NCBI RefSeq assembly: GCF_004766055.1
Contig: NZ_SPQR01000005.1
Location: 124,001-188,000, forward strand
Source of the DNA: Desulfosporosinus sp. Sb-LF
GTDB lineage: Bacteria; Bacillota; Desulfitobacteriia; Desulfitobacteriales; Desulfitobacteriaceae
Length of the DNA stretch: 64,000 nt
Direction of reading: 5' to 3'
Every line of letters begins with the position of its first letter. Position 1 is the first letter of the stretch. A model generated the notes under the pieces. That model made no database searches. It worked only from the letters and a program-made list of their open reading frames with translations, and had not been told where the DNA came from. This document shows positions 29,071 through 46,800 of this stretch, in pieces. A program made the translations under genes and the position numbers.

Positions 29071-29081
29071 GGAGAACAACT

Positions 29082-29624
29082 ATGCGATTATTTGTAGGGA
29101 TTGAATTACCGGATGAAATCAAACGAGTGCTCCTCGAATTTCAGTCTGAACTAAAACAGCTCGGAGTAAAGGGGTTATGGAAATCCGCAGAAAACTTTCA
29201 TGTCACCCTGGAATTTCTGGGAGAATTAGAACCAAATAGTCTTCCGACCCTCACAGAAACACTGTCCAAAAGAGCAAGGAACCACAAACCTTTCCATTTA
29301 AGCATCGAGGGATTAGGGGCATTTCCTTCTCTGAAACGGCCCCATACTTTGTGGACAGCGATAAGCGGAAGCTTAAATGCACTACATCAGCTGAGAGATG
29401 AGATACATATTGAGCTCGTCAAAAATAGCTTTGTTTTAGAAGAAAGGCAATTTAAGTCGCATATTACTATGGCCTCTCGTCCCCAATTCGACGATATTGA
29501 CTTATCCTGTGTTCGTACCAAGAAATTTGGGGAGTTTATGGTTGCAGAGGTTGTTTTATTTGAGAGCAGGGCTTCATATGGAAAAAGGGTGTACACGGAT
29601 TTATATAGAACTAAGCTCCTTTGA
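29082..29624 (+). CDS. thpR: RNA 2',3'-cyclic phosphodiesterase (ThpR)
   Basis: 180 residues of the 2H phosphoesterase superfamily. Both H-x-T motifs are present, HVTLEFLGEL near residue 42 and HITMASR near residue 127, and the start MRLFVGIELPDEIK is typical. It hydrolyses 2',3'-cyclic phosphate ends of RNA to 2'-phosphates. It begins 11 bp after the FMN protein, with AAGGAG upstream, so it appears to be the last gene of the norCB run. Confidence 0.9.
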   Translation: MRLFVGIELPDEIKRVLLEFQSELKQLGVKGLWKSAENFHVTLEFLGELEPNSLPTLTETLSKRARNHKPFHLSIEGLGAFPSLKRPHTLWTAISGSLNALHQLRDEIHIELVKNSFVLEERQFKSHITMASRPQFDDIDLSCVRTKKFGEFMVAEVVLFESRASYGKRVYTDLYRTKLL

Positions 29625-29667
29625 TTTTCTCACCTATGGAATGCATCCTGACTCAGTATTTAAAAGC

Positions 29668-29687
29668 ACCGCCACAAATGTGGCGGT
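29668..29687 (+). terminator. hairpin after thpR, weak terminator
   Basis: Perfect 9-bp stem ACCGCCACA / TGTGGCGGT with a 2-nt loop, 44 bp past the thpR stop, but the T-run after it is poor. Confidence 0.5.
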
Positions 29688-29832
29688 TCAGAATGAACCT
29701 TAATAGGTAGTTTCAACGGTTTGTTCTTTGGTTTTGAAGGTATTGTCAGTTTTTCGGCGAAATATAACATGGTACTTTCCTTTAGTTAACGTTTTGAAGG
29801 ATGCCTAAAAATAGTAATTGAGAGGGAATACT

Positions 29833-31110
29833 ATGCGTAAGAGAGATATCGAGAATTTTGTTAATCATAAATACTTAGAAGAAGTCCTTGGTAGCTTCTC
29901 CAAAGCTACAGGTCTACACATCGAAGCAGTTAATAGAAAAGGTGAAACACTTGCAATACTCGGCAATAGAGAAAGAAGCGATTTTTGCAAGTTTATCCGT
30001 AGTAACAGCAAAGGAGAAAAGAAATGTTTAGATTCTTATAAAGAAGCGACTTTAGAAGCAGCAAAATGGAATGAGCCATATTTCTTCCGTTGCCACGCCG
30101 GACTCGTTATATGGGCCGTCCCTATTATATTAGATAATGTCTTTTTAGGTAGTATTATCTGCGGACAAGTATTATTGTGGAAACCAGATGGATTCTTTCT
30201 TCGAGACTTAGAAAGGAGTAATTCTAAGGATCGCGATTTTGGTATTCTACAACAAAAAGTCCAAAGCCTTTCCATTTCCTCTCCTGAGCAGTCCCAAGCT
30301 GCTGCTGATATGCTCTTTGTTGTAGTTAATCATTTAGTCAAGAGAAATATTCATACAATGGAAGAAGAAAATGCATATCGTTTAGAACGACTTAAAATAA
30401 AAGCTGATCTGGAAAATAGAAAGAAGCAGAAAAATAACATTGAGTTTACTGATTACGGAACATATTTAAAGAAGGAAAGGCGTTTCCTAAGTTATATACG
30501 CCTTGGTGATAAAACCAGAGCCGAGAATAGTTTGAAGAATTTATTAACTGATCTCCTAACCAAGACCGCCGGTGATAAAACCACAATAAAAATACGAGTT
30601 CTGGAATTAGCTTCTCTATCATCGAGAGCCGCTGTCGAAGGAGGAGCAGATGCGGAACAAGTCATGGCAATTCTTAAAGATTTTAATAATGAGGTCGAAC
30701 GCATTGAGCGTGTGGAAGAATTCTTTTTCAAAGTCCATAAAGTCATAGTAACCTTCCTCGATGGGATCTTTAATCTTGCAGATAAGAAGCATCTTAGTTT
30801 GGTGACAAATGCCCGTAATTTTATTATTGAAAATTACCATAAACCCCTTACAATTAAAGCTACAGCTGATTATCTTTTTATCAGTCCTTCCCACCTGTCT
30901 CGTTTGTTCCGGTTAGAATTAGATTGTACCTTTAATGATTACCTGACGAGAGTACGTGTCGAAAAAGCAGTAGAACTTTTAAAAAAACCCGAGTTTAGCG
31001 TTGAACGAGTTTCTCAAGCAGTGGGCTTTAAAAGCCAAAGCTATTTCGCGGAAATATTCCGGAAATACATTGGAGTGACCCCTCTGATCTACAAGAATAG
31101 CTTATTTTAG
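29833..31110 (+). CDS. AraC-family regulator with PocR sensory domain
   Basis: About 425 residues. The N-terminal PocR domain (LEEVLGSFSKATGLHIEAV, CKFIRSNSKGEKKCLDSY, FRCHAGLVIWAVPII, GSIICGQVLLW) is a ligand-binding module with conserved cysteines, named for the propanediol regulator and found in several methanol- and betaine-type methyltransferase loci. The C-terminal AraC pair of helix-turn-helices (FISPSHLSRLFRLEL and VSQAVGFKSQSYFAEIFRKY) is intact. It precedes a corrinoid protein gene and converges on the betaine operon. The conserved element upstream of the mtg-like and opu operons sits where an AraC activator would bind. Start at ATG 29833 (GAGGG upstream), not TTG 29818. Confidence 0.9.
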   Translation: MRKRDIENFVNHKYLEEVLGSFSKATGLHIEAVNRKGETLAILGNRERSDFCKFIRSNSKGEKKCLDSYKEATLEAAKWNEPYFFRCHAGLVIWAVPIILDNVFLGSIICGQVLLWKPDGFFLRDLERSNSKDRDFGILQQKVQSLSISSPEQSQAAADMLFVVVNHLVKRNIHTMEEENAYRLERLKIKADLENRKKQKNNIEFTDYGTYLKKERRFLSYIRLGDKTRAENSLKNLLTDLLTKTAGDKTTIKIRVLELASLSSRAAVEGGADAEQVMAILKDFNNEVERIERVEEFFFKVHKVIVTFLDGIFNLADKKHLSLVTNARNFIIENYHKPLTIKATADYLFISPSHLSRLFRLELDCTFNDYLTRVRVEKAVELLKKPEFSVERVSQAVGFKSQSYFAEIFRKYIGVTPLIYKNSLF

Positions 31111-31121
31111 GGGTGATTAGT

Positions 31122-31781
31122 TTGATATTTGACGATATAATTCATTCGATTGTAGAAGGTGAATCCGAAGATACACTTGAATTAACCAAACAGGCTTTAG
31201 CACAAGGATATTCTGCCACTTCCATTCTTGAAAAAGGACTCATTACTGGGATAAATATTATAGCTGAAAAATATCGCAATGAAAAAGTTAATGTTCCGGA
31301 GGTCCTAATGGCTACCCATTCAATGCACGCCGGACTATCCGTAATTGAACCGATCTTGACTGCACCCACTAAAAAGGGGCTCGGTAAGATAATCGTAGGT
31401 ACCGTCGCAGGGGATTTACACGATATTGGCCTCAACATTGTTAAGGCTATGGCAATGTCTACCGGTGCCCGCATAATAGATCTTGGCGTAAATGTATCTC
31501 CAAAAAAATTCGCCAGTGCTGTTCGCAAGGAAAAACCTGATATTTTACTGATCTCGGCCTTATTAACCACAACCATGTCTGTTATGAAAGATGTTATAGT
31601 TGAACTAGAAGTTCAAGGGTTACGTAACGATGTTAAAATTTTCGTTGGGGGGGCACCGATAACAGATGCTTTTGCAAAGGAAATAGGAGCAGATTATACT
31701 TTCGAAGATGCTTTTCAATTTCGAGATTTCCTAAAGGAAAACTTAAGCAAATTATTAACTTCTAAACGAGTTGGCCTATAA
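31122..31781 (+). CDS. corrinoid (B12-binding) protein of a methyltransferase system
   Basis: About 219 residues; helical cap then VAGDLHDIGLNIVKAM with the cobalt-ligating histidine, LLISALLTTTMSVMKDV and IFVGGAPITDAFAKEIGAD. It follows the PocR-AraC gene by about 11 bp, with GGGGTG placed 6 nt before TTG 31122, preferred over GTG 31113. Being tied to the regulator rather than to a methyltransferase, it might serve the betaine system or feed cobalt state into sensing; this is inference. Transcription ends at the large hairpin at 31919. Confidence 0.9.
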   Translation: MIFDDIIHSIVEGESEDTLELTKQALAQGYSATSILEKGLITGINIIAEKYRNEKVNVPEVLMATHSMHAGLSVIEPILTAPTKKGLGKIIVGTVAGDLHDIGLNIVKAMAMSTGARIIDLGVNVSPKKFASAVRKEKPDILLISALLTTTMSVMKDVIVELEVQGLRNDVKIFVGGAPITDAFAKEIGADYTFEDAFQFRDFLKENLSKLLTSKRVGL

Positions 31782-31918
31782 AGATTGCATTTTGAGAGCC
31801 GAAGTAGGCGTAAAAACCTTGAGATTTTCCCAAGGTGGTGAGGCGTTGTCCCCAAATAAGGGAATTTTTCATTACAAAGTGACGAATAATCTGCGAACTA
31901 ATATGAATTTACCGAACA

Positions 31919-31968
31919 AAAAACGGTCTATAATAAACTGCAAAAAAAGTTTATTATAGACCGTTTTT
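31919..31968. terminator. bidirectional terminator between convergent operons
   Basis: Perfect 21-bp arms (31919-31939 and 31948-31968) with an 8-nt loop, A-runs on the left and T-runs on the right, so it ends in U-rich RNA in either direction. It separates the plus-strand corrinoid gene from the minus-strand RACo gene. Confidence 0.9.
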
Positions 31969-32046
31969 ACTGAAGTTTTAGTTATTTTGTATTGTTAAGC
32001 ACGACATTTCTGATATTCGAACAAGAGAATGGTGACCTAAATACGA

Positions 32047-33882
32047 TTAATTCGTTCTTTCTAAGTACATACTTCTCATATAATTACTGGTAAAGGCCTT
32101 ATTACCTCCTAGTTCAACATGCTTTACCTTTTTAGCCAGCTCTGTGGCGTCCTGGAATACTGTCCGATTTAGTAGTGCCCTCATCGCTCCCACATGGGCT
32201 GCATTACCCACGGTCTTTATTTTATCCGGATTAATGTTGGGAACTAAGCCTATTTCCAAAATGCTACTCGCTTTTAAATAGGAAGCAAAGGTGCCTGCTA
32301 AAACAACCGAATCAAGATCTTGGATCGAAATCCCTACCATCCCTACAAGCGTTTTAATACCTGCACAAACAGCACCTTTAGCCAGTTGCAATTCGCTAAT
32401 ATCCCCTTGGTTCAAAAAGACGTCGACTCCTTCTTTCTCACCATCAGATAGTACAAATTCTCGACCAGCTTTTCCACCTGATCTTATCCGAGCCTTAAGT
32501 CGTGGTGAAAGAGAGCTCTCTTTTTCTGGATCGATTATTTTTCCCTGTTTATTGATAATTCCCGCTAACTTCATTTGCTCTATTCCCTCAATAAGACCCG
32601 ACCCACAAATTCCGATTGCTTTTTGACTACCAATAACCTTGATCTCCACTCCGTCCTCAGTAATTGTAACCGCCTCAATAGCACCTGGTTTGGCTCTCAT
32701 ACCCTGCGTGATGCCGGCCCCCTCAAACGCTGGCCCGGCTGCCGTCGAACAGGCCATCATTTCATGCGAGGTTTTTAGAAACAATTCACAATTAGTTCCC
32801 AAATCTATCAAAAGATGATTTCCATCCTCTAAAACTTCAGGCGTACCTATCACTGCGCCAACTGTGTCGCCACCCACGAAGCTGCCGATATTCGGAAACG
32901 TTAGAATTCTAGCCTCGGGATTTATTTCTATTCCTAGTTTTGTAGCGCTCAATTCGTAGAAGCTATTCAGTACAGACACGTAGGGCGCAACTGCCAAATT
33001 GGAGGTGTCTAGGCCTAAAAACAAGTGGTTCATGGTCGTATTAGATACTACAGTCATTTTGTAAATACTATTCGCAGGGATTCCACTTTCTTTAACAAGT
33101 TGATTTAATAAACTATTAATCGTCTGTTTCACAGCATCTTTTAGACGGTGTCGTTTTTCCCCGCTCTCCCGCGCATAGGAAATTCGTGATATGACATCCG
33201 CTCCATAAGCTGTTTGCTCGTTCTCATGGGAAACAACTCTAATAAGTTGGGCACTATTAAGATCAACTAAGCTAACCGCTACACTAGTTGTTCCAATGTC
33301 CACTGCAACTCCAAAGATTGTTAAAGTGGTATTCCCTGCTTCAACGTCCAGAACCTGATTATCCCACAACGTAGCAGTTACAGCGAAATCACCAGCCCGC
33401 AAAACGCTGGGAAGCTTATCCAGTGCAAACATTTTGATGCTTACTGTCTCGAAGTCTAGAATTTCTAACAATTCATCGTTTAAACGGTTCCAGTCCCCTC
33501 GTTCATCTTGAAGTGAAGGTTTAGGTACCTTCACAAATACTTTTTGTACTCCATGGTCAAGGTTTATTTCAAGCATATCATGGAGTGCGGCATCTTTTCG
33601 ATCATAGATCTCAGTGTGGGCCACCTTGATCTCCATACCTTCTTCTGCTTTCACTCCGCATGCAAGGCGAAATCCTGCTTCTATTTCCTTAATCGTCAAA
33701 TGTTTAAGATCCGACTGAGTCGGCTCCTGCAGCCCTGAAAAGAACTGTACTTTACATTTACCGCATAAACCTTTTCCACTACAAACATTTTGAACGGAGA
33801 TTTGGTTACGAGCTAAGACCTCCATTATAGATTCACTCTCAAAGCCCTCAACAACTCGATTTGGTGTGATCGTTATTTTCAT
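32047..33882 (-). CDS. reductive activator of corrinoid proteins (RACo), second copy
   Basis: 611 residues. Ferredoxin-type N-terminus with C-x5-C-x2-C in CSGKGLCGKC and a later Cys in RLACGVKA; then an ASKHA ATPase domain with AVDIGTTSVAVSLVDL, LIDLGTNCELFLKT, CSTAAGPAFEGAGI and AICGSGLIEG-like segments. It restores cob(I)alamin in oxidised corrinoid carriers. It is the last gene of the betaine operon, overlapping the DUF1638 gene by 35 bp, so it most likely serves the corrinoid protein of that operon. It clearly differs in sequence from the RACo at 19727-21577. ATG 33882 has AGGAGGG upstream. Confidence 0.93.
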   Translation of the reverse strand: MKITITPNRVVEGFESESIMEVLARNQISVQNVCSGKGLCGKCKVQFFSGLQEPTQSDLKHLTIKEIEAGFRLACGVKAEEGMEIKVAHTEIYDRKDAALHDMLEINLDHGVQKVFVKVPKPSLQDERGDWNRLNDELLEILDFETVSIKMFALDKLPSVLRAGDFAVTATLWDNQVLDVEAGNTTLTIFGVAVDIGTTSVAVSLVDLNSAQLIRVVSHENEQTAYGADVISRISYARESGEKRHRLKDAVKQTINSLLNQLVKESGIPANSIYKMTVVSNTTMNHLFLGLDTSNLAVAPYVSVLNSFYELSATKLGIEINPEARILTFPNIGSFVGGDTVGAVIGTPEVLEDGNHLLIDLGTNCELFLKTSHEMMACSTAAGPAFEGAGITQGMRAKPGAIEAVTITEDGVEIKVIGSQKAIGICGSGLIEGIEQMKLAGIINKQGKIIDPEKESSLSPRLKARIRSGGKAGREFVLSDGEKEGVDVFLNQGDISELQLAKGAVCAGIKTLVGMVGISIQDLDSVVLAGTFASYLKASSILEIGLVPNINPDKIKTVGNAAHVGAMRALLNRTVFQDATELAKKVKHVELGGNKAFTSNYMRSMYLERTN

Positions 33883-34543
33883 GCTGCCCTCCTGCTAACA
33901 TTTTCAAAGTAATAACTTGCCCCGCTTCGACATAGATTGATTCTGGCGCCTTAAGTCCTCTTATAACTGAGGTCAGGAGACTTATATCCCCCTCGATTTC
34001 TCCGACTTCCCAGCCAAAAAAATCCGCAATTTCCCGAACCTTTCCTCGGTATCGTTCAAGATCATTTATTCCTGGTGTAATAATAAAGATTGCCTTTTGA
34101 TAACTTCCATACAAAGTTCTAATTAATTTGAGCGCTTTCTTTTCTCCATATATCGCTTCATATTCGTAGTATTCTGCCAAAGGAGTGCGCCCATAGTCCA
34201 GCCATCCCTGACTGAAATAATAAGTAAGGGAATTCTCCTTGAATAATTCCATATGCCTATTAGTCGACCCTAACATCAGGCCAATACAATCGTGTGTTGC
34301 CGGAAATAAAAGTGGCACGCGTGGTGATAGCAGACCAAGCATTGAATTAGAACATCGGCCATAAGTCAGGATAATTAAATCATAATCCTGGCTCTCATTG
34401 ATTATCTCCTGGATTTTATCGTGTAGTTTATCGGGCCGGGCGTGAAAGCTGTAATCCAGGAATTGGAAATCCACCCCCTGGTTAAGCCCTTGTGCCAGGA
34501 CTTCGTTCATTGTCGAATGACAACCAATCAGTTTAATTTTCAA
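33848..34543 (-). CDS. DUF1638 protein
   Basis: About 231 residues, DUF1638 family, found beside MttB-type methyltransferase genes. Typical segments are MKIKLIGCHSTMNEVL at the start, a conserved YGRCSNSMLGL with Cys, and FPATHDCIGLMLGS. The function is unknown to me; the conserved cysteine and histidine suggest metal or corrinoid binding. Its 3' end overlaps the RACo gene by 35 bp. The frame stays open to 34564; I place the start at TTG 34543 because GGAGG is 9 nt upstream and homologues begin with M-K-I. A paralogue follows directly upstream. Confidence 0.8.
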   Translation of the reverse strand: MKIKLIGCHSTMNEVLAQGLNQGVDFQFLDYSFHARPDKLHDKIQEIINESQDYDLIILTYGRCSNSMLGLLSPRVPLLFPATHDCIGLMLGSTNRHMELFKENSLTYYFSQGWLDYGRTPLAEYYEYEAIYGEKKALKLIRTLYGSYQKAIFIITPGINDLERYRGKVREIADFFGWEVGEIEGDISLLTSVIRGLKAPESIYVEAGQVITLKMLAGGQHENNDHTKSSC

Positions 34544-34588
34544 CCGCCTCATCCTCCACAACACCGAAAAAAATAGTTAGGGCACCGT

Positions 34589-35287
34589 TTAAGTTTCTGG
34601 GAAAAATGCCTTCCTAGTTTGATATATCTGCTTTGATTCATCGTTTTGGGCGTTCGGAGGTATGGTCACCATCTCGCACTGTCTATTGAGAATCGCCTCT
34701 ACGAATTTAAGATCCCCTTTTTCTTCGGAATATATCTTTTCGAATTTTTCACAAGCCTCGCGAACATGCATTCGGTACTTGTCAAGTGTATAGCAACCAT
34801 TATCAATCAAAGTGAAATGGGTATAGTTCTTATACATCACCTTAGAGACTTTCCAGCCCTTCTTCTCTCCATACGTCTCAATATATTTCCTACTGGAACT
34901 CAAAGGATCTTCTCCTGCATCGATCCAGTTCTTGTTCAAATAAAAGGTTCCTACTTTCTCGGCTTGAATAGCCTTAAACCTTTCCATCGATCCCAAAATC
35001 ACCGGAATACAATCATCGACATTTGGGTAAATAAGAGTAAGTGTTTCGGAAGAGATTCCTTTCAGTGACCCTCCACAGTTCCCTAGGAATAAGAGGACAA
35101 TATCTCCAGGATTTAAATACGTTTCTGCTTCTTGAATCTTTTCTTGAACCTTCAAATGAAGTTTATCCGGAACGTTATGCAAGGCTTGCTCAATCCATAA
35201 AATATCGACTGTAATTGTTTCTTTAAAGACTTCCAGTTCCCCTTTAAATGCCTCACAAGCAATAATAAGTTTAATTTGCTTATCCAC
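34589..35287 (-). CDS. DUF1638 protein, paralogue
   Basis: 232 residues of the same family: KLIIACEAFKGELEV at the start, LFLGNCGGSLKGIS with the conserved Cys, and YPNVDDCIPVILGSMERF. It sits between the BCCT transporter and the other DUF1638 gene, 45 bp from the latter. The two share the LxLxxxNCxxxLxG and DDCIxxxLGS blocks but diverge elsewhere, so they are an old pair rather than a recent copy. Start GTG 35287 with AAGGAAG upstream. A hairpin at 35326-35362 lies just before the gene. Confidence 0.8.
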   Translation of the reverse strand: MDKQIKLIIACEAFKGELEVFKETITVDILWIEQALHNVPDKLHLKVQEKIQEAETYLNPGDIVLLFLGNCGGSLKGISSETLTLIYPNVDDCIPVILGSMERFKAIQAEKVGTFYLNKNWIDAGEDPLSSSRKYIETYGEKKGWKVSKVMYKNYTHFTLIDNGCYTLDKYRMHVREACEKFEKIYSEEKGDLKFVEAILNRQCEMVTIPPNAQNDESKQIYQTRKAFFPET

Positions 35288-35325
35288 TGGATTTCACTTC
35301 CTTGTAAGATGATTATGATTGTGCG

Positions 35326-35362
35326 AAAGAACACCCAGGCCTCCACAACCTAGGTGTTCTTT
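35326..35362 (-). terminator. intra-operon hairpin after the BCCT gene
   Basis: Arms AAAGAACACC / GGTGTTCTTT with inner pairing of AGG and CCT. It lies between the BCCT stop and the DUF1638 start inside an otherwise continuous operon; the T-tract is weak, so it is better read as a partial terminator or an RNA-processing and stability element. Confidence 0.55.
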
Positions 35363-35409
35363 AAATTGTTATTAGGACGTCACAACTTTTGGTAAAGTTA
35401 TTGATTAGC

Positions 35410-36915
35410 CTACTTTACGCCTGAAAGCTTCTCCTGCCCAAGTGCTTTGTAAATGCTATAGCTCATGGCTATCATGATCAGCATGAACGGGAACGCCGCG
35501 ACAATAGAAACCGTCTGCAAGACCGATAACGCAGCAGTGCCACCGCCGACTAAGATCAGGATAATGGTGAAAGCACCCTGTATGATACCCCAGAAGCTAC
35601 GCAATTTCTTGTCAGGGTCCATGTCACCATTGGAAGTCAGCATAGCCAGTACATAGGTTGCGGAATTCGCAGCACCTACAAAGCAGGCAACGATGAGGAG
35701 AATTGCCAAGGGAGCGGTGATTGAATACAAAGGTAACTGTTGCAGTGTCGCGAAAAAGGCGGTCGTATAGTCCGTTTTAATAGCGGCCTGAATGGCCCCA
35801 TTGGAGAGCTTATCCAGGTTGAAAGCGGCACCGCCGTATATCGATAACCAAATCATGGAGAAGCCGGAAGGCAGTAAGGTTACAGCCAACACGAATTGGC
35901 GGATTGTACGACCTTTGGAGACACGGGCGACGAATTGTCCGACGAACGGAGCCCACGCAATCCACCAAGCCCAGTAGAACACGGTCCAACCCTTTAACCA
36001 ATCCATATTACCCATCCACAGCGTCTGTCCGATAAAGTTTTGCAGGTAGGAACCGAGAGTATCTGTGAAGTTGTTCAGGATTAAAACAGTTCCTCCGAAC
36101 AAGAAGATAAACACCATGAAACCGATCGAAAGCCATATCTTAATATCAGCTGCAATCTGCATAGCCTTATGCAGACCGGAGATCGTGGCTAGGGTAAAAA
36201 GCAACGTCATTACTGCGATGACTATAGAGACAGTCACGGGCGTCGCTTGAATTCCCCAGATATAATGCAACCCTGTCGCGATTTGGTTAGAGCCAAGACC
36301 TAGGCTGGTAGCCACGCCGAACACTGTGGCAAACACTGAAAGGATGTCAATCGCTTTGCCGATCGGTCCATAAATCCGTTCACCAATCAGCGGATAGAAT
36401 GCGGAACTGACTAGAAAAGGCAGATCCTTGCGGAATTGGAAGTATGCCAGAGCCAGACCGCAAATGGCGAAAATAACCCAAGGGTGGATACCCCAGTGGA
36501 AAAACACGATTCGCATAGCTGTACGCATAGCTTCAGGGGTAGCAGCCGTACCCATCGGTGGAGTTAGGTAATGCATCATGGGCTCGGCAACCGACCAGAA
36601 TACAAGCCCGATACCCATACCTCCTCCGAACAACATAGAAAACCACTGAAAGTTGCTAAACTCAGGCTTATCATCGTCTTTCCCAAGCTTGATCGCACCA
36701 AAACGACTAAACGCAATTCCGTAAATGAAGATCGTGAAAAAGCCGACCGTCAAAAGGTATAGCCATCCGAAATCAGTCGTTAAAAAGGCGAACGCTGCAC
36801 TAGCAACTTTACCCATTTCCTTGGGTAGGAACATACCGAATAGTACAAACAATACGATGATGACAGAAGAAATATACATTACAGAACGATTGGGTGTTCC
36901 CTTACTATTCGACAT
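35410..36915 (-). CDS. BCCT-family betaine/carnitine/choline transporter
   Basis: About 501 residues and 12 membrane segments. The BCCT signature regions are clear: FGGGMGIGLVFWSVAEPM, FFHWGIHPWVIFA, FGVATSLGLGSNQIATG and WTVFYWAWWIAWAPFVGQFVARVSKGRT, with the tryptophan-rich substrate cage. It would import glycine betaine or a similar quaternary amine. Placed in the operon after MtrH-type, MttB-type and corrinoid genes, the same order as I recall for the D. hafniense mtg locus. The frame is open to 36984, but AGGAG sits 8 nt before ATG 36915 (MSNSKG), which I choose. Hairpins flank the gene on both sides. Confidence 0.93.
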   Translation of the reverse strand: MSNSKGTPNRSVMYISSVIIVLFVLFGMFLPKEMGKVASAAFAFLTTDFGWLYLLTVGFFTIFIYGIAFSRFGAIKLGKDDDKPEFSNFQWFSMLFGGGMGIGLVFWSVAEPMMHYLTPPMGTAATPEAMRTAMRIVFFHWGIHPWVIFAICGLALAYFQFRKDLPFLVSSAFYPLIGERIYGPIGKAIDILSVFATVFGVATSLGLGSNQIATGLHYIWGIQATPVTVSIVIAVMTLLFTLATISGLHKAMQIAADIKIWLSIGFMVFIFLFGGTVLILNNFTDTLGSYLQNFIGQTLWMGNMDWLKGWTVFYWAWWIAWAPFVGQFVARVSKGRTIRQFVLAVTLLPSGFSMIWLSIYGGAAFNLDKLSNGAIQAAIKTDYTTAFFATLQQLPLYSITAPLAILLIVACFVGAANSATYVLAMLTSNGDMDPDKKLRSFWGIIQGAFTIILILVGGGTAALSVLQTVSIVAAFPFMLIMIAMSYSIYKALGQEKLSGVK

Positions 36916-37023
36916 AAGCATTACTCCTTTCGTTACTTTATCTTCAGTTAATTGCTTTATTCTAGCACCGGTGCGTGGAGTCACCCGATTTTAGAACCAC
37001 TGTTACACAGCAATTAGATAAAG

Positions 37024-37073
37024 AACTCCTAGGGACTTTAAAGAGTTTGTATGTTTTAAGATCCCTAGGAGTT
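37024..37073 (-). terminator. intra-operon hairpin between corrinoid gene and BCCT gene
   Basis: Perfect 12-bp arms AACTCCTAGGGA / TCCCTAGGAGTT with a 26-nt loop. The following sequence on the minus strand is only moderately T-rich. Together with the hairpin at 35326 it brackets the transporter gene. Confidence 0.55.
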
Positions 37074-37116
37074 AACTTCATTAAACGATCTTCTTTATTC
37101 ACCTAATTATGAGAAA

Positions 37117-37764
37117 TTACTTCCCCAGCATACGGTCGGCAAGCGCAACTGCTTCGTCAGCAGATTCCGCCCATCCGTCGGCTCCGATCTCATCCGCATA
37201 CGCTTGGCTGGTAGGACCGCCGCCAATGAAGACTTTGAACTGATCCCTAAGATTATGCTCTTTCAAATAATCAATGATCCCTTTTTGCGCGCTCATAGTG
37301 GTTGTCAAAAGGGCACTAGCGCCAATAATGTCCGCACCAACTTCTTGGGCTTTCAAGACAAAATCTTCTGCTTTAATATCCGTGCCGACATCGAATACTT
37401 TATAGCCTGCTGCCGTAAACATTGCGCCCGTAATATTCTTACCGATGTCATGAATATCACCTTCGACCGTCCCCAAAACAATCTTGCCTTTAGCCTCCCC
37501 TTGACTCATACCCAATTTGGCAATTTCGGGTTCAAGCAGACCTAACCCAACTTTCATAGCCTCTGCGGACATCATGACATCTGGCAAAAAGACTTCTCCA
37601 GCTTTCCATAGCTCTCCCACAACTTCGATTCCTTTGATCAGACCAAGTTGTACCGCGTCAACAGGGTTAATAGATTCAGCAATGACTTTTTGAGAAAGTT
37701 CCTCGACTATATCCTCATCACCATCGATAATTGCCTGCTTTAATTCTTCAAAAATTTCATTCAT
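37117..37764 (-). CDS. corrinoid protein of the glycine betaine methyltransferase system (MtgC/MttC-like)
   Basis: 215 residues; helical cap, then VEGDIHDIGKNITGAM with the cobalt-ligating histidine, IIGASALLTTTMSAQKG and VFIGGGPTSQAYADEIGAD. It begins 50 bp after the stop of the MttB-type gene and must be its methyl-accepting partner. The downstream RACo of the same operon would keep it active. High confidence as a corrinoid carrier; the pairing with betaine rests on the operon. Confidence 0.93.
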   Translation of the reverse strand: MNEIFEELKQAIIDGDEDIVEELSQKVIAESINPVDAVQLGLIKGIEVVGELWKAGEVFLPDVMMSAEAMKVGLGLLEPEIAKLGMSQGEAKGKIVLGTVEGDIHDIGKNITGAMFTAAGYKVFDVGTDIKAEDFVLKAQEVGADIIGASALLTTTMSAQKGIIDYLKEHNLRDQFKVFIGGGPTSQAYADEIGADGWAESADEAVALADRMLGK

Positions 37765-37814
37765 TTTCTATTCCTCCAATTTAATTAAGATGGATACATA
37801 TTTGATATTGATTG

Positions 37815-39230
37815 CTATTCAGAACGCTTGGCGATGAATTCTAACAACAGATTATCAATGCTTTCGTCAAGAGCTGGTGCTACGTAACTAGCCAAAACCT
37901 CTTGCCATTGTTTATGAGCCCTTTGATTTGTATCCAAGCTTTCCTTGGACCAAGCCTCATAGGCAGAGCGATCACTCAATTGAGGAGTACGGAACTCTTT
38001 TTTATGATTCTTACGGGTATGTTTTTGAGTCAGGAAGTGTCCTCCCGGTCCTACTTTAGCAATCGCATCAAACGCTAAACCGTCCTCATCAAAATTGAAC
38101 CCCTTCATGTAATGCAAGAGCATCCCGGCCATTTCATCGTCCATCATAAATTTCTCATAAGAAATAGCCATGAAGTACTGCAAAATTCCTGCTGTATGAA
38201 GAACAAAGTTGATACCCGTCACGGTAGTCGCCATTAGAGTCATCATAGATTCATAACCAGCTTGGGCATCGACAATCTTGGAATCGTTCAAACCGCCACC
38301 TGACCGACTGGGAACACCGTAATAGCGGGCAATTTGAGCACTGGCCGAAATGAATAGCGCACACTCTGGACTACCGATTGAGAGGCTCCCATTACGCATA
38401 TCACTGAGTGCTGAGGTTGAGCCGTATACGACGGGTGTCCCAGGATTAATACTTTGGGCTAGGGCTATTCCGGCTAAAACTTCAGCATTTTGAAGTGCTA
38501 AAGTACCAACCAAGGCTGCAGGTCCGGTAGAACCGGCCATAACCAAAGAAGCTATAACAACGGCTTGGCCTGCTTCTGCATAGGCCATCAGAGCTCCTAA
38601 CATTCTCTCGTCATATTTCAAGGGAGTCAATGAGTTGATGAGGGAGATTAGCACTGGTTTTTCCTTAATGACCTCTTTACCACCAAAAAGGAGTGACACC
38701 ATTTCGATGGAGTCTTCTGCGCGTTCCCGACCTTCAGCACTGCCCATAAAACACTTATCCGAGTTTTTAATTGAACTATAGATCATTTTCAAATGTCTAA
38801 TTTCGTCTGGAATATCTTGTGGTTCAGCCACCGTTCCCCCAGTCATATGCATGTTTTTGCTAGCCCCTGCTAATTTAACAATATTATCGTAGTCCTGCAT
38901 CGTGCTTTTACGACGAGTCCCGTCAGCTAATTGAATAAAGGGCGCCCCATAACCAGGCATATAGATGATGTTCTCCCCACCGCAGACCAAATTGTGTTCC
39001 GGATTACGGGCATGGAGGGTGAATTGAGAAGGTGCAAGTTTAACTTTTCCCTCAATAAATTCTCTCGTAAAATGTACCCGATTTCCTTCTACCTTTTGTC
39101 CTTGAGCCCTAAAGACCTCCAAAGCTGGTTCATAATCGAAATCCATACCGACTTCTTCAAGAATCTTTATCGATTCATTATGAATGATCTCTACCTGTTC
39201 TTGTGTCAAAACATCATACTTAGGTAACAT
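37815..39230 (-). CDS. mtgB: MttB-superfamily methyltransferase, probable glycine betaine:corrinoid methyltransferase (MtgB-like)
   Basis: 471 residues, continuous with no internal amber codon, so it lacks the pyrrolysine of true trimethylamine methyltransferases. Family stretches include YMPGYGAPFIQLADG, TGGTVAEPQDIPD, GSTGPAALVGTLALQNAEVL, PGTPVVYGSTSALSDMRNGSLS and PSRSGGGLNDSKIVDAQAGYES. The non-Pyl members include glycine betaine methyltransferase MtgB, of almost this length, in D. hafniense. With a BCCT transporter, an MtrH-type partner and an OpuA importer beside it, glycine betaine (giving dimethylglycine) is the best guess; carnitine, proline betaine or choline are alternatives. Confidence 0.88.
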   Translation of the reverse strand: MLPKYDVLTQEQVEIIHNESIKILEEVGMDFDYEPALEVFRAQGQKVEGNRVHFTREFIEGKVKLAPSQFTLHARNPEHNLVCGGENIIYMPGYGAPFIQLADGTRRKSTMQDYDNIVKLAGASKNMHMTGGTVAEPQDIPDEIRHLKMIYSSIKNSDKCFMGSAEGRERAEDSIEMVSLLFGGKEVIKEKPVLISLINSLTPLKYDERMLGALMAYAEAGQAVVIASLVMAGSTGPAALVGTLALQNAEVLAGIALAQSINPGTPVVYGSTSALSDMRNGSLSIGSPECALFISASAQIARYYGVPSRSGGGLNDSKIVDAQAGYESMMTLMATTVTGINFVLHTAGILQYFMAISYEKFMMDDEMAGMLLHYMKGFNFDEDGLAFDAIAKVGPGGHFLTQKHTRKNHKKEFRTPQLSDRSAYEAWSKESLDTNQRAHKQWQEVLASYVAPALDESIDNLLLEFIAKRSE

Positions 39231-39291
39231 AGTAACACCCCTTTAATAATTTTTGATAGTTTATCCACGCAGTAAACTTCACCAAATTCTT

Positions 39292-40266
<975 letters not shown>

Positions 40267-40380
40267 TCATGAAATAGGAACTTTACTTCATTTGCTAGCG
40301 CGTTCCACGATTCTGTGAAGTTCACCCCCTATGTGCTAATGATCTCCTGATGCAATTTTTAGATTATTTCTCGTGCAGTT

Positions 40381-40442
40381 ATCATAACATTATATCTCTT
40401 TCACATTATCACTACGTTTATGCTCGTTTTACTACATTTGAG
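40381..40442 (-). promoter_or_regulatory. mtg operon promoter region with shared 23-bp element
   Basis: GCTCGTTTTACTACATTTG (inside 40420-40442 on the plus strand) recurs exactly upstream of the opu operon at 43301-43323. In both places ATCATAACAT (minus strand ATGTTATGAT, a -10-like sequence) follows at nearly equal distance (29 and 28 bp between). The spacing fits an activator site overlapping or just above the -35 region; the PocR-AraC protein at 29833 is the candidate. Confidence 0.7.
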
Positions 40443-40485
40443 GCCATAATTTATTATTCTAACTATTCTTAATTGTTATGCCGCT

Positions 40486-40526
40486 AAATGCCAAAACTCA
40501 GGAGAATATCCTGAGTTTTGGCATTT
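40486..40526 (-). terminator. Rho-independent terminator after the opu operon
   Basis: Perfect 18-bp arms (AAATGCCAAAACTCAGGA and its complement at 40509-40526) with a 5-nt loop, 16 bp past the OpuAC stop. Confidence 0.88.
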
Positions 40527-40541
40527 ATATATATCTTCTTA

Positions 40542-41420
40542 TTAATTCATCCAACTATTTACTAAAGTTTTATTATCTGCTGCCCATTTCTTGGCAGCAT
40601 CCTGGGGTGCTAGTCCTTGACTGATTAGACCTTCTAGGCTTCCGATTTGTTGGTCATTTAACTTGAACTTTTTCAAAATCGATGCAATTGACGGTAGCTT
40701 TTGGGTAAATTCCTTATTCGCCAAAATATGCAGGCCCTCCGCTACACCATAAGTTTTTTTAGGATCTGTTAGATATTTAAGGTCATATTTACTAAACATC
40801 CAATGTGGACTCCATCCAGTCACCACGAGCCACTTATTGTCCTTATACGCTTTATCTAAAGTCGCTAACATGGCAGCTTCACTGCCTTGGGATATTTCAT
40901 AGCTTAGAGCATAGTCCTTTACGGCCTTGTCTGTTGTCTTCATAATTCCCGCACCAGGATCAATCCCTATAATTTGTTCCCTAAATTTGCTCTTTTGGCC
41001 GTTTAATTCATCAATGGAATTGATACTTACATATTTAGGCACCACTAAGCCTATTTTAGCTTCACCTTGATACCAGGACCCATAATCATCAAGTTTGTCT
41101 TTGTATTTTTCCCAATAAGCCTGTTGTGTTAGGGGTAACCAACTGTCCAAAAATAAATCTAAATCGCCTTTGCTTAAGCCAACAAAGAGCGGAGCTACAT
41201 CTACATTCAGCAGTTCTACCTTATAACCTTTCTCTTCTAAAATCTCTTTCCAAAGATTGGTAACAGCAACATCCTCTTGCCAATTGATATAACCGATTTT
41301 TACTGTACCTTTAACCTCTTGTTCAGCTTGCTGTTGCCCGCAGCCCGCCGCTAACGTAACTATTAGCAAAATACTTAAGACAATATTGCCTATCTTTGGC
41401 CATTTTCCTATTTTCGTCAT
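40542..41420 (-). CDS. opuAC: glycine betaine ABC transporter substrate-binding lipoprotein (OpuAC/ProX-like)
   Basis: 292 residues. A lipoprotein signal (ILLIVTLAAGCGQQQ) puts the lipidated cysteine near residue 27. The mature part is an OpuAC-type binding domain: VKIGYINWQEDVAVTNLWKE, GDLDLFLDSWLPLTQQAYW, and GWSPHWMFSKYDLKYLTDP with tryptophans expected for the betaine cage. It binds glycine betaine or a similar compatible solute outside the membrane for the permease and ATPase encoded just upstream. Last gene of the opu operon before a strong terminator. Confidence 0.92.
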   Translation of the reverse strand: MTKIGKWPKIGNIVLSILLIVTLAAGCGQQQAEQEVKGTVKIGYINWQEDVAVTNLWKEILEEKGYKVELLNVDVAPLFVGLSKGDLDLFLDSWLPLTQQAYWEKYKDKLDDYGSWYQGEAKIGLVVPKYVSINSIDELNGQKSKFREQIIGIDPGAGIMKTTDKAVKDYALSYEISQGSEAAMLATLDKAYKDNKWLVVTGWSPHWMFSKYDLKYLTDPKKTYGVAEGLHILANKEFTQKLPSIASILKKFKLNDQQIGSLEGLISQGLAPQDAAKKWAADNKTLVNSWMN

Positions 41421-41441
41421 TTGCTAACCCCCCCCACATGA

Positions 41442-42281
41442 TTATAGTCTTTTACTTTTTCTTGGGCTATGAATAAGTCCTTGGCTCAAACGATCTAAAA
41501 TCATAGCTAAGATGACTACGGCTAAGCCATTTTCGAAACCCTTACCAATATCCATCTGTGAAATGCCAGCCAACACACCCTGCCCAAAACCACCCGAACC
41601 GATCATCGCTGCAATAACAACCATTGAAAGCGATAACATCATCGTCTGGTTGATCCCTGCCATAATAGTCGGCATTGCCAACGGTAACTGGATTTTCCAA
41701 AGCAGTTGGAATGGAGTTGAACCAAAAGCTTCTCCCACTTCTACCAAATCAATCGGTACCTGCCGGATCCCCAAATTCGTTAACCTGATGACAGGTGGCA
41801 TAGAAAAAATGACCGTTGCAAAAACGGCGGGTACAGTTCCTAATCCAAAAAACATTAATGCAGGAATCAGATATACAAAGGATGGCATGGTCTGCATGAA
41901 ATCCAGAAGCGGAGACATCAGTCGTTGAAACTTTTGATTGCGTGCAGCTAAAATACCTAGCGGAAGCCCGATACAAATTGACACGAGGGCAGAAATAATA
42001 ACTAGTACTAAAGTTTCTATAAGGGCAGGCCAGAGTTGCAAGTCGTAAATCAGTAACAGTCCTAAGGTTGAACCGATAGCCAAACGCCAGCCTCTCACTC
42101 GCCATGCCAGTGCAGCAACAATCAGAATTAAGATCCACCAAGGAAGCACTGTCAAACCATTTTTAAAAACATGGATAAATGTGTTAACTCCTGCCGCGAA
42201 GGCATCGAATAAATGTCCGTATTGTTTAAGTAGCCAATCCACTCCGACACTGACTTGTTTTCCTAAGGGTATCCGGTACAA
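41442..42281 (-). CDS. opuAB: glycine betaine ABC transporter permease (OpuAB-like)
   Basis: 279 residues with about six membrane segments and the EAA loop VEVGEAFGSTPFQLLWKIQLPLAMPTIMAG. Its start, MYRIPLGKQVSVGVDWLLKQYG, resembles ProW/OpuAB proteins, which carry a helical N-terminus. The TTG start follows the stop codon of the ATPase gene with no gap, so the two are translationally coupled. It forms the membrane channel of the OpuA-type importer. Confidence 0.92.
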   Translation of the reverse strand: MYRIPLGKQVSVGVDWLLKQYGHLFDAFAAGVNTFIHVFKNGLTVLPWWILILIVAALAWRVRGWRLAIGSTLGLLLIYDLQLWPALIETLVLVIISALVSICIGLPLGILAARNQKFQRLMSPLLDFMQTMPSFVYLIPALMFFGLGTVPAVFATVIFSMPPVIRLTNLGIRQVPIDLVEVGEAFGSTPFQLLWKIQLPLAMPTIMAGINQTMMLSLSMVVIAAMIGSGGFGQGVLAGISQMDIGKGFENGLAVVILAMILDRLSQGLIHSPRKSKRL

Positions 42282-43106
42282 CTACCGCACCCCCTTTGAC
42301 TTCTTAAATATGTTAACAAACTGCGCTACATAATCATCAGCGGGCTGCTCTGCGATCTCTTCAGGTGTACCTATCTGCACTATGGCGCCATCTCTTACAA
42401 AAGCAATGTGATCACCCAATTTCAGAGCCTCAGATAAATCATGTGTGATAAACACAATTGTTTTATTCATCCGTTTTTGTAAATTCAAGAGCTCCTCCTG
42501 CATTTCTTCTCGAATTAAGGGATCAAGTGCGCTAAAAGCCTCGTCCATAAGCAAAATGTCCGGATCGTTAGTCAAAGCCCGTGCTAAGCCTACCCGCTGT
42601 TTCATACCTCCACTTAAATTATCGGGATAAGAACTTTCCCAACCAGCTAAACCTACTAACGCTAAAGTTTTTTCAGCTAGTTTTTCCCGTTCTTCCTTAT
42701 CCACACCTTGAACCTCTAAGCCATAGACAGCATTTTGCAAAACTGTACGATGAGGCAATAAGGCAAATTGCTGAAAAACCATCGCCATTTTCGTTTGCCT
42801 AATTTGGCGTAATTCACGCGAATCAAGTTTTGTGATATCCTCTCCATCAAGGAGTACACTCCCTGAGGTAGGATTGATCAAACGATTAAGACAACGTAGA
42901 ATGGTTGATTTTCCACAACCCGATAAACCCATTATCACAAATGTCTCTCCGGCCTGTACCGAAAAACTAACATTATTGACGGCAATAGTTTGACCTGTTT
43001 TCGCAAGAATTTGTTCCTTATTGAAATCTTTTTGTAATAATTCCAGGGCCTTTTGCGTTTGAGAGCCAAAGACTTTTACAAGATTTTTGACTTCGATCTT
43101 AGTCAT
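42282..43106 (-). CDS. opuAA: glycine betaine ABC transporter ATPase (OpuAA-like, no CBS domain)
   Basis: 274 residues. Walker A GLSGCGKST, Q-loop VFQQFALLPHRT, ABC signature NLSGGMKQRV and Walker B ILLMDEAFSALDP are intact, and the N-terminus (VKVFGSQTQKALELLQK) is typical of OpuAA/ProV. It ends soon after the nucleotide-binding domain at FVNIFKKSKGVR, so the tandem CBS domains that sense ionic strength in OpuA (usual length about 400) are missing. Import may therefore not be gated by salt but be nutritional. First gene of the operon, downstream of the shared element at 43301. Confidence 0.92.
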   Translation of the reverse strand: MTKIEVKNLVKVFGSQTQKALELLQKDFNKEQILAKTGQTIAVNNVSFSVQAGETFVIMGLSGCGKSTILRCLNRLINPTSGSVLLDGEDITKLDSRELRQIRQTKMAMVFQQFALLPHRTVLQNAVYGLEVQGVDKEEREKLAEKTLALVGLAGWESSYPDNLSGGMKQRVGLARALTNDPDILLMDEAFSALDPLIREEMQEELLNLQKRMNKTIVFITHDLSEALKLGDHIAFVRDGAIVQIGTPEEIAEQPADDYVAQFVNIFKKSKGVR

Positions 43107-43262
43107 AGTCTCCCTCCCCTAAAGTATAAATGGCCATTCAGCGTGCACCAAAACTTGCTTTACAAACGTCACTCTTCCATCCGACGTTCGAAGATTACTG
43201 CGACACTTTTCTTCTAAATATACCCACTGTTAATATTAAAGAATGATTTTAATGCTTTTTTC

Positions 43263-43323
43263 ATCATAACATCTTTTCGATACCCAAAGTTGCCACGTTC
43301 ATGCTCGTTTTACTACATTTGAG
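43263..43323 (-). promoter_or_regulatory. opu operon promoter region with shared 23-bp element
   Basis: Exact copy (43301-43323) of the 23-bp element upstream of the mtg-like operon, extended by ACGTT on its left, with ATCATAACAT at 43263-43272 as the shared -10-like sequence. It lies about 160 bp upstream of the ATPase start. Confidence 0.7.
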
Positions 43324-43467
43324 TCATTTTTGAAAATTCCAATTATTATATTTAATCTTTAAATTTGCTAAAAAATACCGCGATTCGGAAGAATAATAAT
43401 TGGTTTTAAAAAAGGAAATTTTAAACTAAACGTTGGTTTTTACCTTTATAAATTTTCGGCTTTATCT

Positions 43468-43859
43468 CTAATTCTCACTTAAAAAAGTGAAACCTAATAT
43501 GAGGATACCTCCAATCATTTGCATAAGACTCAATCTTTCTTCCAGCAATATTGCAGCGACGATCACTGCAGAAATTGGGTCAATATAGCTTAAAACAGCG
43601 ATAGTCTGTCCCTTTAGTTCCTTGACCGATGAAAAATATAAGAAGAAAGCAATCCCTGTATGTATAACACCTACCTACTATTAGGATAAAAATGATGGAA
43701 TTTGAGCTTATACCCGAAAAGTCCATATGATCTTTCATAAAAACATACGGTAAAGGCGCCAATACTTCCGAATATAAGCATAGCTGATATGATTTTAAAT
43801 TTTCTGTTAAACATTTCTACTTCTGTCTGCCTGGGTGCGAGATGCCCATTATTGGACAT
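43468..43859 (-). pseudogene. decayed EamA/DMT transporter
   Basis: The minus strand reads MSNNGHLAPRQTEVE then the DMT-type start KIISAMLIFGSIGAF, after which the frame shifts (PYVFMKDHMDF in another frame), most of the middle is missing, and it resumes as the transporter's C-terminal end: GVIHTGIAFFLYFSSVKELK, YIDPISAVIVAAILLEERLS, and GGILILGFTFLSEN. The ends fit a drug/metabolite transporter, but about two thirds of the protein is gone. It lies between the opu operon and the RND genes. Confidence 0.75.
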
Positions 43860-43863
43860 TTGC

Positions 43864-46800
43864 CTATAGCGCTAGATCCTTCTTTCCAGTCATTAAAGTA
43901 CTCGGACGAAACTTCTTGCGTAAATCGTCAAAAAATGAATACATCAAAGGAACGACCACTAACGTCAGAAGTGTCGAAGTAATCACCCCTCCAATAATGG
44001 CATGGGCCATCGGGGCTCGCGATTCAGACCCTTGCCCAAGTCCTAATGCAAGCGGCATCATGCCAAAGATCATAGCTACAGAGGTCATTATAATCGGTCG
44101 AAGACGAGTCCGTCCGGCAATCACTAATGCCTCATCCCGCTCTACCCCTTGAGCGCGTTGCTGCTTGGCAAAGTCTATAAGTAAGATCGCATTTTTAGTT
44201 ACCAATCCCATAAGCATAATGACTCCAATGTTAGCCATCATCCCAAAATCGTCATTGGCCAGGAATAAGGCCATAATCGCACCGATGATTGCCAAGGGAA
44301 GTGAAAACATAATGGAAAAAGGATCGATATAGCTTTCAAACTGAGCCGCCAAAATAAAGAAGATAAATAAGACACCCATAACAAGAGCAATTCCCATGGA
44401 TGTAAAACTCTCTCCCATGAAGGACGACTGACCTCCAGCAACAAACTTATAGCCTGGAGGCAGACCAAGCTCTTGGATAACCGGATTAAATTTCTCCTCA
44501 AATTTCCCCAAAGAAAGATTTGCTAAATTTGCGGACAATTGAATCTCTCGTTTGCGGTCCGAACGACTGATCTCACTGGGCGCCGGAGCAAACACCTTGT
44601 CTGTCACCTGATCCAAAGAGATCATTGCTTGACCTTCAGGCGTACTGTTTCCCCCAGGGACATAGATCTTGTCGAGACCTGTCAACGTTTTTCTTTGAGC
44701 AGGATCAAGCATTAAGCGCACATCATAGTTATGGTCGCCCTCCCGATATTGATTGATGACCGTTCCACTATAAAGGGTATGTAAGGTACTGGCCACCAGT
44801 CCGGTTGATACACCCAAATCGGCAGCCGCAGCTGAGCGAATCTTGATATTTTCCTCGGGTTTCCCTGGTTTATAACTACTGCTGACATCGGTTACCCCAG
44901 GCATAGTTTCTAGGATTTTCTGCGCTTTCTCAGCATAGGTTTCTAAAACGTCTAAGTCATCACCTTGTAAGCTATACTGGACATCTTTCCCCATCTGCAT
45001 TAAACCTTTAAGATTGAGAGCAACTTGAATGCCGGAAAGAGCGTTCAATTTAGGTCTGAGATCGGAAATAATCTGAAAGCTAGAGCGTTTTCTAACGGCT
45101 TTATTCTTAAGTTGCACATAAATATTGAGCTGATCGTTCTTAATCGTAGAATACGTTTCTAAAACTTCCGGATAGGTACGAATAATATCTTCAATCTGTT
45201 TCGTCGCTTGAGCAGCAGCCGGTTCGGTCAAACCTGAGTCTAACGTAGCAACCACGCTGAATTCGCCGGTATCTGCAGTGGGCATAAAACTCACACCTAA
45301 AAACGGTATAAGGCCCAGACTACCGAAAAACAAGAGAGTTACAATCAAGGCGGATTTTGTCCTATTTTTAAGAACAATTCCAAGTAACCGAGCATACAAA
45401 TCTTGCCCAATCTCAAATTGACGGTTAAACCAGTCCAAGAATTTGCCCAAGGGCCCTCGGGCCTTATGTTCCTCTTGTTGTTTTAAATAACGAGAAGAAA
45501 ATAAGGGAACTAACGTAAACGAAACTAGAAGAGAGACCAAAACTGCTACAACTACAGTAATCCCAAACTGTTTAAAGAATTTACCCGTAATTCCGCTCAT
45601 CATCCCTAACGGTAAAAATACAGCTACCAAGGTGAAGGTCGTTGCCATGACTGCTAACCCAATTTCTGACGTGGCATCCTTAGCCGCTACCAGCGGTGAC
45701 TTACCCATCCCTAAATGCCGTTCAATGTTTTCAATGACCACGATGGCATCATCAATCAGTAACCCCACCGATAGAGACAGGGCCATTAAAGACATCATAT
45801 TCAAGGTATATCCCAAAACCTTCATTGCAAAAAACGTTGAAATAATTGAAGTAGGAATCGCAATGGCACTGATAATGGTCGTCCGCCAATTGCCCATAAA
45901 TAAAAGCACGGTCAGGATTGCTAGGATTCCCCCCTCAGCGATCGTCTTGATAACGTCGTTCACGGAACCTCGAATGTTGACAGAGTTATCCTTGACAATA
46001 TCTAAACTGACGCCCTCGGGAAGAGTCTGTTTCAAACCCTCGACAATTTTTCGTACATCGTCGGCGACGATAACCGTGTTACTACCTGACTGTTTGATAA
46101 TATCTACACCGATTGTAGGTTTGCCCTGAAAAAAGGATATGCTCTCAGGATCTTTTACCCCGCTCATGACTTTGGCGATATCCCTAATGTATAATTGTAT
46201 ACCACCTCGTTTAGCAATCGGAATATTGTTGAAATCCGCCATTTTTTGTATTTTACCACTGGTACGCAATGAAATCTTCCGATCATTGGTCGTAACGTTT
46301 CCTGCCGGGGCTTCCAGGTTCTCATAACCCAAGGAATTCATCACTTCTAAGGTGGTAAGATTATAGGCGGCCATTTTATTTTGGTCCAGCTGTATCTGGA
46401 CTTCTTTAAGCTGCTCGCCAAGCACATTCACTACCCCAACACCATTAATAGATTCTATTTTCTTTCGAATATCGTCATTAACGAGTGTCGTTATTTCTGT
46501 TAAGGGCATACTTCCCGAGACTGCCAAAGACATAACAGGTTCTGCAGAAGGATCAAATCGAGAAATCACAGGTTCTTGCGCATCTGTAGGTAGTTTCCCT
46601 CGAATCGTGCCGAGTTTATCCCGGACATCCTGAGCTGCAGTTGCCGGTACTGTCTCCAACGTGAACTCGGCAAAAACCAATGCAACCCCTTCTTGAATAT
46701 GGGAATTAACGTGTTTAACTCCAGACACTTGGCCTATTGCGTCTTCTACTTCGCGGGCAATATTGTTCTCAACTTGCTCTGGCGTAGCACCCGGTTCAAC

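Follow-up and report, generated by a model that had tools for sequence, protein, structure and literature searches.

Why should an operon for glycine betaine demethylation (mtg) and an operon for betaine import (opu) carry the same short sequence upstream, and which protein would read it? The question was raised by a 64-kb window (the whole stretch of DNA that was analyzed) of the genome of Desulfosporosinus sp. Sb-LF (4.27 Mb, 30 contigs, also searched), in which two exact copies of a 23-bp element lie 2.9 kb apart. Our analysis suggested that the element is, in all likelihood, the operator of the PocR-AraC protein encoded at 29833-31110 on the plus strand, which would act as a transcription activator. 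This binder was favored because of a conservation peak over the element, its direct repeats, its fixed spacing to the -10, its co-occurrence with mtg and with the regulator, and operator differences that are linked to the recognition helices of paralogues.

The two copies, CTCAAATGTAGTAAAACGAGCAT, stand at 40420-40442 and 43301-43323, both on the minus strand, upstream of mtgABC-BCCT and opuABC, respectively. Each is followed on the same strand by the -10-like sequence ATGTTATGAT (40381-40390 and 43263-43272), 29 and 28 bp downstream of the 23-mer, as the first-pass annotation had described. That annotation had named two findings that would speak against a binding site: membership in a longer dispersed repeat, and absence from relatives that have the same operons. 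When the window was scanned at up to three mismatches, only the two copies were returned (100 dinucleotide shuffles: mean 0.00, largest 0), and the genome search that it had proposed likewise yielded only two copies at that threshold, with none for the reversed-pattern control. A longer dispersed repeat was ruled out by this count and by the extent of flank similarity, as the match of a 151-base query with flanks to the second place covered 54 bases, with 81% identity. The contrast that had been drawn between an identical core and diverged flanks held for the far flanks, but the likeness continued past 23 bp; the two 31-bp operators differ at 4 positions, all in the last 11 bases.

Alignment of 26 sites (15 before mtg, of which 14 were from Desulfosporosinus and one from G002; 2 before opu; 9 before a BCCT gene) indicated that the 23-mer is the strictest part of an operator of about 31 bp. 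The operator reads AAATGTAGTAAAACGAGCAT followed by AAnTGTAGTGA and contains two direct repeats with a spacing of 20 bp; when its first 11 positions were compared with the sequence at an offset of 20, self-identity was 0.70, against 0.16-0.56 at other offsets between 8 and 34. The mtg operator of the window (40409-40439, minus strand), which overlaps the 23-mer, has the direct repeats AAATGTAGT and AAACGTAGT 20 bp apart around AAAACGAGCAT, and the opu operator (43290-43320, minus strand) matched a profile built from the aligned sites with an E-value of 4.6e-13, as a training member. With 14 mtg promoters registered on the 20-bp core, mean column identity was highest in the operator, whose three successive blocks of ten columns gave 0.90, 1.0, and 0.89. 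It was 0.67-0.81 in the 30 columns upstream and 0.64 around the -10, and it fell to 0.27-0.51 in the far flanks. The upstream columns include an A/T-rich conserved block about 20 bp from the mtg operator (40450-40459, minus strand; mean column identity 0.81 over ten columns in these promoters), which is GAATTTTCA in most relatives and degenerate in the window.

An extended -10, TGnTAnnAT, started 29 or 30 bp past the 20-bp core in all 26 aligned sites, and the best -35 at spacings of 16-18 averaged 2.2 of six matches, with four reached at 5 of the 26. In the window, the extended -10 TGTTATGAT lies at 40381-40389 for mtg and at 43263-43271 for opu (both minus strand), where the best -35 matches two and none of six positions, respectively; the mtg promoter also has a second -10-like hexamer of equal score 8 bp upstream of the extended -10. 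By analogy, the operator is placed as expected of an AraC-type activator that abuts a weak -35. Between opuC and the mtg promoter lies a perfect 19-nt inverted repeat (40485-40527, strand not assigned), apparently terminator-like, and for this reason opu and mtg look like two units with one promoter each. A riboswitch or structured leader was considered and rejected, as Rfam models over 29000-44000 gave a single match, PYLIS_3 inside mtgB (38192-38291; 39.2 against a gathering score of 38), and none in either promoter.

Conservation was followed in a family set of 45 genomes, 29 of them in the genus Desulfosporosinus, by two measures: the full 23-mer and the 20-bp core, each at up to three mismatches. 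The full 23-mer was found in 13 of the 45 genomes, all within the genus, and in none of the controls. An mtgB orthologue (87-100% identical) was present in 14 of the 29 genus members, and the core preceded mtg in every one of these (with three mismatches in G010 and two in G035), the full 23-mer in 12; relatives with the same operons therefore did have the element. Only one of the 15 members without mtgB, G024, had a match to the 23-mer, and it alone among them also had a profile match below 1e-3. The association of site with mtgB gave a Fisher p of 2e-7, in which genomes with mtgB were scored by the core, those without it by the 23-mer, and kinship was ignored. A second copy stood before the transporter unit adjoining mtg in 11 of the 14 genomes, this unit being opuABC in G000 and G017 and a BCCT gene in the other nine; the G031 contig breaks off within opu, and in G010 no transporter lies next upstream of mtg. 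The regulator was also part of this pattern, as 14 of the 15 genus members with an orthologue of it (83-100% identical) had the site before mtg. Only G026 departed from this; its genome is 85% complete, and the contig that carries the regulator is 10.7 kb long.

The sequence-only profile, whose E-values are rough, found the two known sites in the Sb-LF genome (4.6e-13 and 8.2e-11), followed by a next match at 0.13. Over the 45 genomes it returned 36 matches below 1e-3; 26 of these were the training sites and one was an identical duplicate in G023, which leaves nine others. In searches over more than 40 genomes, stricter filters lose some weak matches. Two of the nine extended the pattern to other genera: in G002 (C42, 2.1e-4), whose mtg site was in the training set, a match preceded opuABC with OpuA, OpuB, and OpuC 72, 73, and 60% identical, and in a third genus (G041, 4.4e-4), which had contributed no training site, a match preceded BCCT-mtg. 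The genes beside the remaining matches are downstream neighbors, i.e., candidate targets only. They comprised a DUF1638 gene (76%) followed by hydantoinase-like, BCCT-like (30%), and MttB-like (29%) genes (G017:C68); a hydantoinase-like gene (G031:C222); a sigma-54 activator followed by hydantoinase-like and BCCT (48%) genes (G010); a gene without a Pfam match followed by a sugar-type transporter (G031:C45); and the choline-type operon of a paralogous regulator, group B below (G015:C80). The ninth was the G024 copy. Hydantoinase-like genes of 642-678 amino acids were seen downstream of an element match in three relatives (L192, L194, and L195), with DUF1638 or BCCT near two of them. In G018, a dCache chemotaxis receptor lies behind another of the nine matches (L197:3065-5164), and betaine taxis under the same control as mtg and opu is possible.

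The proposed binder consists of a PocR domain (PF10114, 137.1 against 23.9), a helical middle, and a C-terminal double helix-turn-helix (HTH) of AraC type (PF12833, 1e-20; PF00165, 2.2e-18). Its predicted fold had a predicted local distance difference test (pLDDT) value of 83.9 and a predicted template modeling (pTM) score of 0.49, and the best isolated AraC-type PDB domains superposed at root-mean-square deviations of 1.2-1.7. Weaker fold matches included CodY, partly for the GAF domain alone (E about 0.008-0.055; aligned range not shown), which would weakly fit a small-ligand domain in the regulator. A cofactor site of four cysteines in the PocR domain was considered and set aside: all four are invariant in 43 sequences, but three of them, judged by eye, recur in two other PocR proteins of the same genome, and so the set looks like a PocR-domain trait.

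A class search of 82 genomes at E ≤ 1e-40 provided 60 relatives of the regulator, which fell into groups A (19; 58-100% identical), B (15; 62-65%), Bx (one; 61%), and C (20; 35-39%), with five others (30-34%); on plasmids, one record at 26% was found. Group A regulators adjoin mtg wherever the contig reaches. Group B regulators lie in a eut/bacterial microcompartment (BMC) cluster beside genes of choline-kinase-like, MttB-family, corrinoid, MTII-type, and HAD phosphatase proteins (11 loci laid out, domains scanned in one), and those of group C adjoin mtaC-type and mtaB genes (17 loci, in one of which the MtaB domain was scanned). Near the start of the operon that follows the corrinoid gene beside the regulator (CorP2, discussed below), the matrix of group A sites scored at least 14.5 in 10 of the 11 group B loci; the longest open reading frame (ORF) overlaps the site in two of these ten, and the eleventh locus (L113) has the same site in its printed sequence. 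The group B site is TAATGCGTCAAAACGAGCAGGAATGTGTTAG with small changes, accompanied in most loci by the block GAATATTCA and a -10 of the TGnTAnnAT type. An A-type site was also sought in group C and rejected, as 17 loci gave two matches, with scores of 10.1 and 9.6 against 24.8-48.6 for the training sites. Instead, in 16 loci (L118 and 15 related ones), the region that separates cobW from the mtaC-type gene has conserved AAGA units 10 bp apart, and this repeat is a candidate operator of the methanol-type PocR-AraC regulator.

The recognition helices followed the same division. In the two helices, which we take to lie where analogy with AraC proteins places them (a placement that agrees with the predicted fold), mean identity to group A was 0.92 and 0.84 for group B, with 0.63 in the PocR domain, and 0.39 and 0.43 for group C, with 0.44 in the PocR domain. 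That operators and recognition helices differ together across paralogues points to this regulator family as the binder. In the eut/BMC loci (L106-L116, e.g., L109:474-19425), the gene set of one locus predicted choline-type amine demethylation, as phosphate esters, towards ethanolamine.

Several observations weigh against this assignment. The paralogue argument is a correlation over few groups, part of which kinship could explain. About 9 kb separate the regulator gene from the nearer operator. In the loci scanned, no site at up to 5 mismatches of 20 preceded the gene of the regulator itself, and an alignment of 10 regulator upstream regions contained no operator-like block; on these two grounds autoregulation was rejected. 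G024, which has neither mtgB nor an orthologue of the regulator, nevertheless has an orphan copy of the element (L031:7983-8005); the ORFs listed near this copy include neither mtg nor transporter genes. The second sites of G018 and G028 differ from the 20-bp core at 5 positions, a level at which chance matches also occur, and rest on position and -10; in G034 the adjacent BCCT gene had no second site at up to 5 mismatches. For G003 and G004, a diverged site was seen by eye only, and the profile gave none there among the matches listed. The orphan copy in G024 is followed by a terminator-like hairpin, as judged by eye.

The missing site before the regulator's own gene would suit an operator that is bound by another regulator, AraC-type or unrelated, with the PocR-AraC protein serving something else, and the genome does have three other PocR-domain genes, one of them beside an ORF with an AraC-type match. 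However, the other PocR-AraC protein of the genome differs in its recognition helices, and a different repeat is conserved next to its operon; the remaining two PocR genes look by eye like chemotaxis and histidine-kinase types, and site and regulator orthologue co-occur across the genus. We consider a different binder unlikely. The same regulator could in principle repress from this site and be derepressed by betaine, which is compatible with the sequence. The position of the operator, upstream of and abutting a -35 that is poor on average, together with the extended -10, is instead the layout of an activated promoter, making repression very improbable. Finally, two exact copies 2.9 kb apart and an orphan in G024 might be expected from a recent promoter duplication or a mobile repeat that left a functionless relic. 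Such an origin is scarcely credible for an element that was kept across the genus and, in diverged form, in other genera, before different transporters, while the far flanks diverged. The PocR-AraC neighbor is the best-supported candidate binder, as judged from the comparative evidence. The first-pass annotation had predicted a shared protein-binding site for the PocR-AraC protein next door, which that evidence favors; its extent has to be revised to about 31 bp with an additional upstream block, and the regulator comes with a corrinoid protein.

For an activator of this kind, we infer the binder, activation rather than repression, and the identity of the inducer, and the following sequence of events may be proposed. 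The PocR domain would sense betaine or a related methyl donor. Two regulator monomers would occupy the direct repeats, whose spacing is 20 bp and which lie just upstream of the -35 region, in contact with it; given a transcription start 7 bp past the -10, the operator would span about -65 to -34. The bound regulator would bring RNA polymerase to a promoter whose -10 is extended and whose -35 is poor, by which import (opuABC or the BCCT gene) and demethylation (mtgABC, transporter, and activator) could be switched on jointly.

The partnership of the regulator with CorP2, a corrinoid protein encoded next to it (31113-31781, plus strand; corrinoid motifs intact), had not been foreseen by the first-pass annotation. 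CorP2 lay within about 215 bp of the regulator in 58 of the 60 class members (A, 19/19; B, 15/15; Bx; C, 20/20; others, 3/5), G022:C66 and G028:C5 being those without it. Among 12 more distant loci (29-34% identical, mostly from other families), it was adjacent tail to tail in 10, one gene away in L142, and 3.3 kb away in L143; the 200-bp spacing in L142 concerns another corrinoid gene, the one in its mtg set, and was left out of the adjacency count. In a tree of 115 corrinoid proteins, one group of 60 rows contained all 55 rows labeled as regulator neighbors and five that the label rule had missed (three adjacent, plus L142 and L143), with moderate support (92/62) and a long-branch warning for the tree. 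By the strict label, 6 changes were needed against 38.7 in shuffles (0/500 as low), and one origin was recovered in 0% of bootstrap trees. The MtgC, MtaC-type, and group B catalytic corrinoid proteins fell outside this group. In a comparison that covered 111 of the 115 rows, CorP2 retains the corrinoid motifs DxHxxG, SxxLTTT, and GG and mostly lacks several residues that are invariant or nearly so among catalytic corrinoid proteins. A cobalamin riboswitch (RF00174, 108.3 bits) occurs at L117:8715-8907 (minus strand), in the extended region that follows the Bx regulator and the adjoining CorP2 gene.

Between groups A and B, identity was 61-65% for the regulator and 60-66% for CorP2 (11 loci), compared with 38-44% for the catalytic corrinoid proteins (10 loci). 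As regulator and CorP2 are equally alike and the catalytic proteins less so, the two seem to have been redeployed together. We tentatively raise the possibility, doubtful as it is, that the regulator and its private CorP2 form a two-part sensor, in which CorP2, apart from the catalytic set, would inform the PocR domain about the corrinoid pool (its methylation or redox state) or about substrate methyl flux. The pair would then have been duplicated jointly and put to use in betaine, choline-type, and methanol methyltransferase systems, with a separate operator for each. The plain reading is that CorP2 is an ordinary extra methyl carrier.

The gene assignments of the first-pass annotation, an mtg set and a betaine importer, were borne out by curated models and domain matches. 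Downstream of the mtg promoter, on the minus strand, mtgA (39292-40212; methyl-corrinoid:tetrahydrofolate methyltransferase, NF047990, 608.5 against a cut-off of 550) and mtgC (37117-37764; catalytic corrinoid protein, NF047995, 416.9 against 310) exceeded their curated NCBIfam cut-offs, with the MttB-family methyltransferase gene mtgB (37815-39230) between them. MtgB, named from this context and predicted to be a betaine methyltransferase, scored below the trimethylamine cut-off of TIGR02369 (380.9 against 525). The same strand carries, by domain match, a BCCT transporter of the betaine/carnitine/choline family (35410-36984), two DUF1638 genes (33848-34564 and 34589-35287; together 33848-35287), and a RACo-type corrinoid activator (32047-33882). 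The opuABC importer (40542-43106, minus strand) comprises OpuA (42282-43106) and OpuB (41442-42281), named from sequence and gene order, and OpuC (40542-41420), which has an OpuAC glycine-betaine binding domain.

Demethylation of glycine betaine supplies acetogenesis and food webs linked to methane, and the control of corrinoid methyltransferase systems in anaerobes seems to be little described. A defined operator with a predicted binder and a series of paralogues provides a directly testable case; if CorP2 is a signaling partner, it would represent a new way to sense methyl donors. The site layout can be compared with that of AraC/XylS class II activators, such as AraC at araI1-I2 and MarA/SoxS. 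The likeness lies in the HTH, by Pfam and fold, and in a tandem direct-repeat site about 20 bp apart that abuts the -35, if the predicted binder is right. The effector domain of AraC is a cupin. In contrast, the regulator of the window has a PocR domain and a helical middle as its effector part, and the site sequence of the element is its own.

Other comparisons concern the domain and its genetic company. In the available part of the account of Salmonella PocR, which responds to 1,2-propanediol (PMC11264322), a PocR domain is likewise joined to an AraC HTH; unlike that protein, the regulator of the window fell below the PocR equivalog cut-off (NF047788, 149.7 against 500) and adjoins corrinoid methyltransferase genes, not pdu/cob. 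The operon itself resembles the glycine betaine mtgABC system of NCBIfam, as MtgA and MtgC pass its curated cut-offs. Among the open-access matches listed, in the portions available, no operator or regulator for mtg was found, and the parts of PMC3306737 and PMC12478193 at hand name no mtg regulator. In the mec cassette for dichloromethane, as given in excerpts of PMC9768040, the PocR-domain sensor MecA is paired with the corrinoid protein MecB at the next locus tag, similar to the pairing with CorP2; MecA is described there as a two-component histidine kinase, not an AraC fusion. The Mth choline pathway of Eubacterium limosum (PMC12155760) includes a choline kinase, an MttB-family protein, a corrinoid protein, and a methyltransferase, and neither PocR nor AraC is mentioned in that paper. 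Unlike Mth, the group B set lies within a eut/BMC cluster, and the Mth gene set resembles the genes that stand beside the group B regulators.

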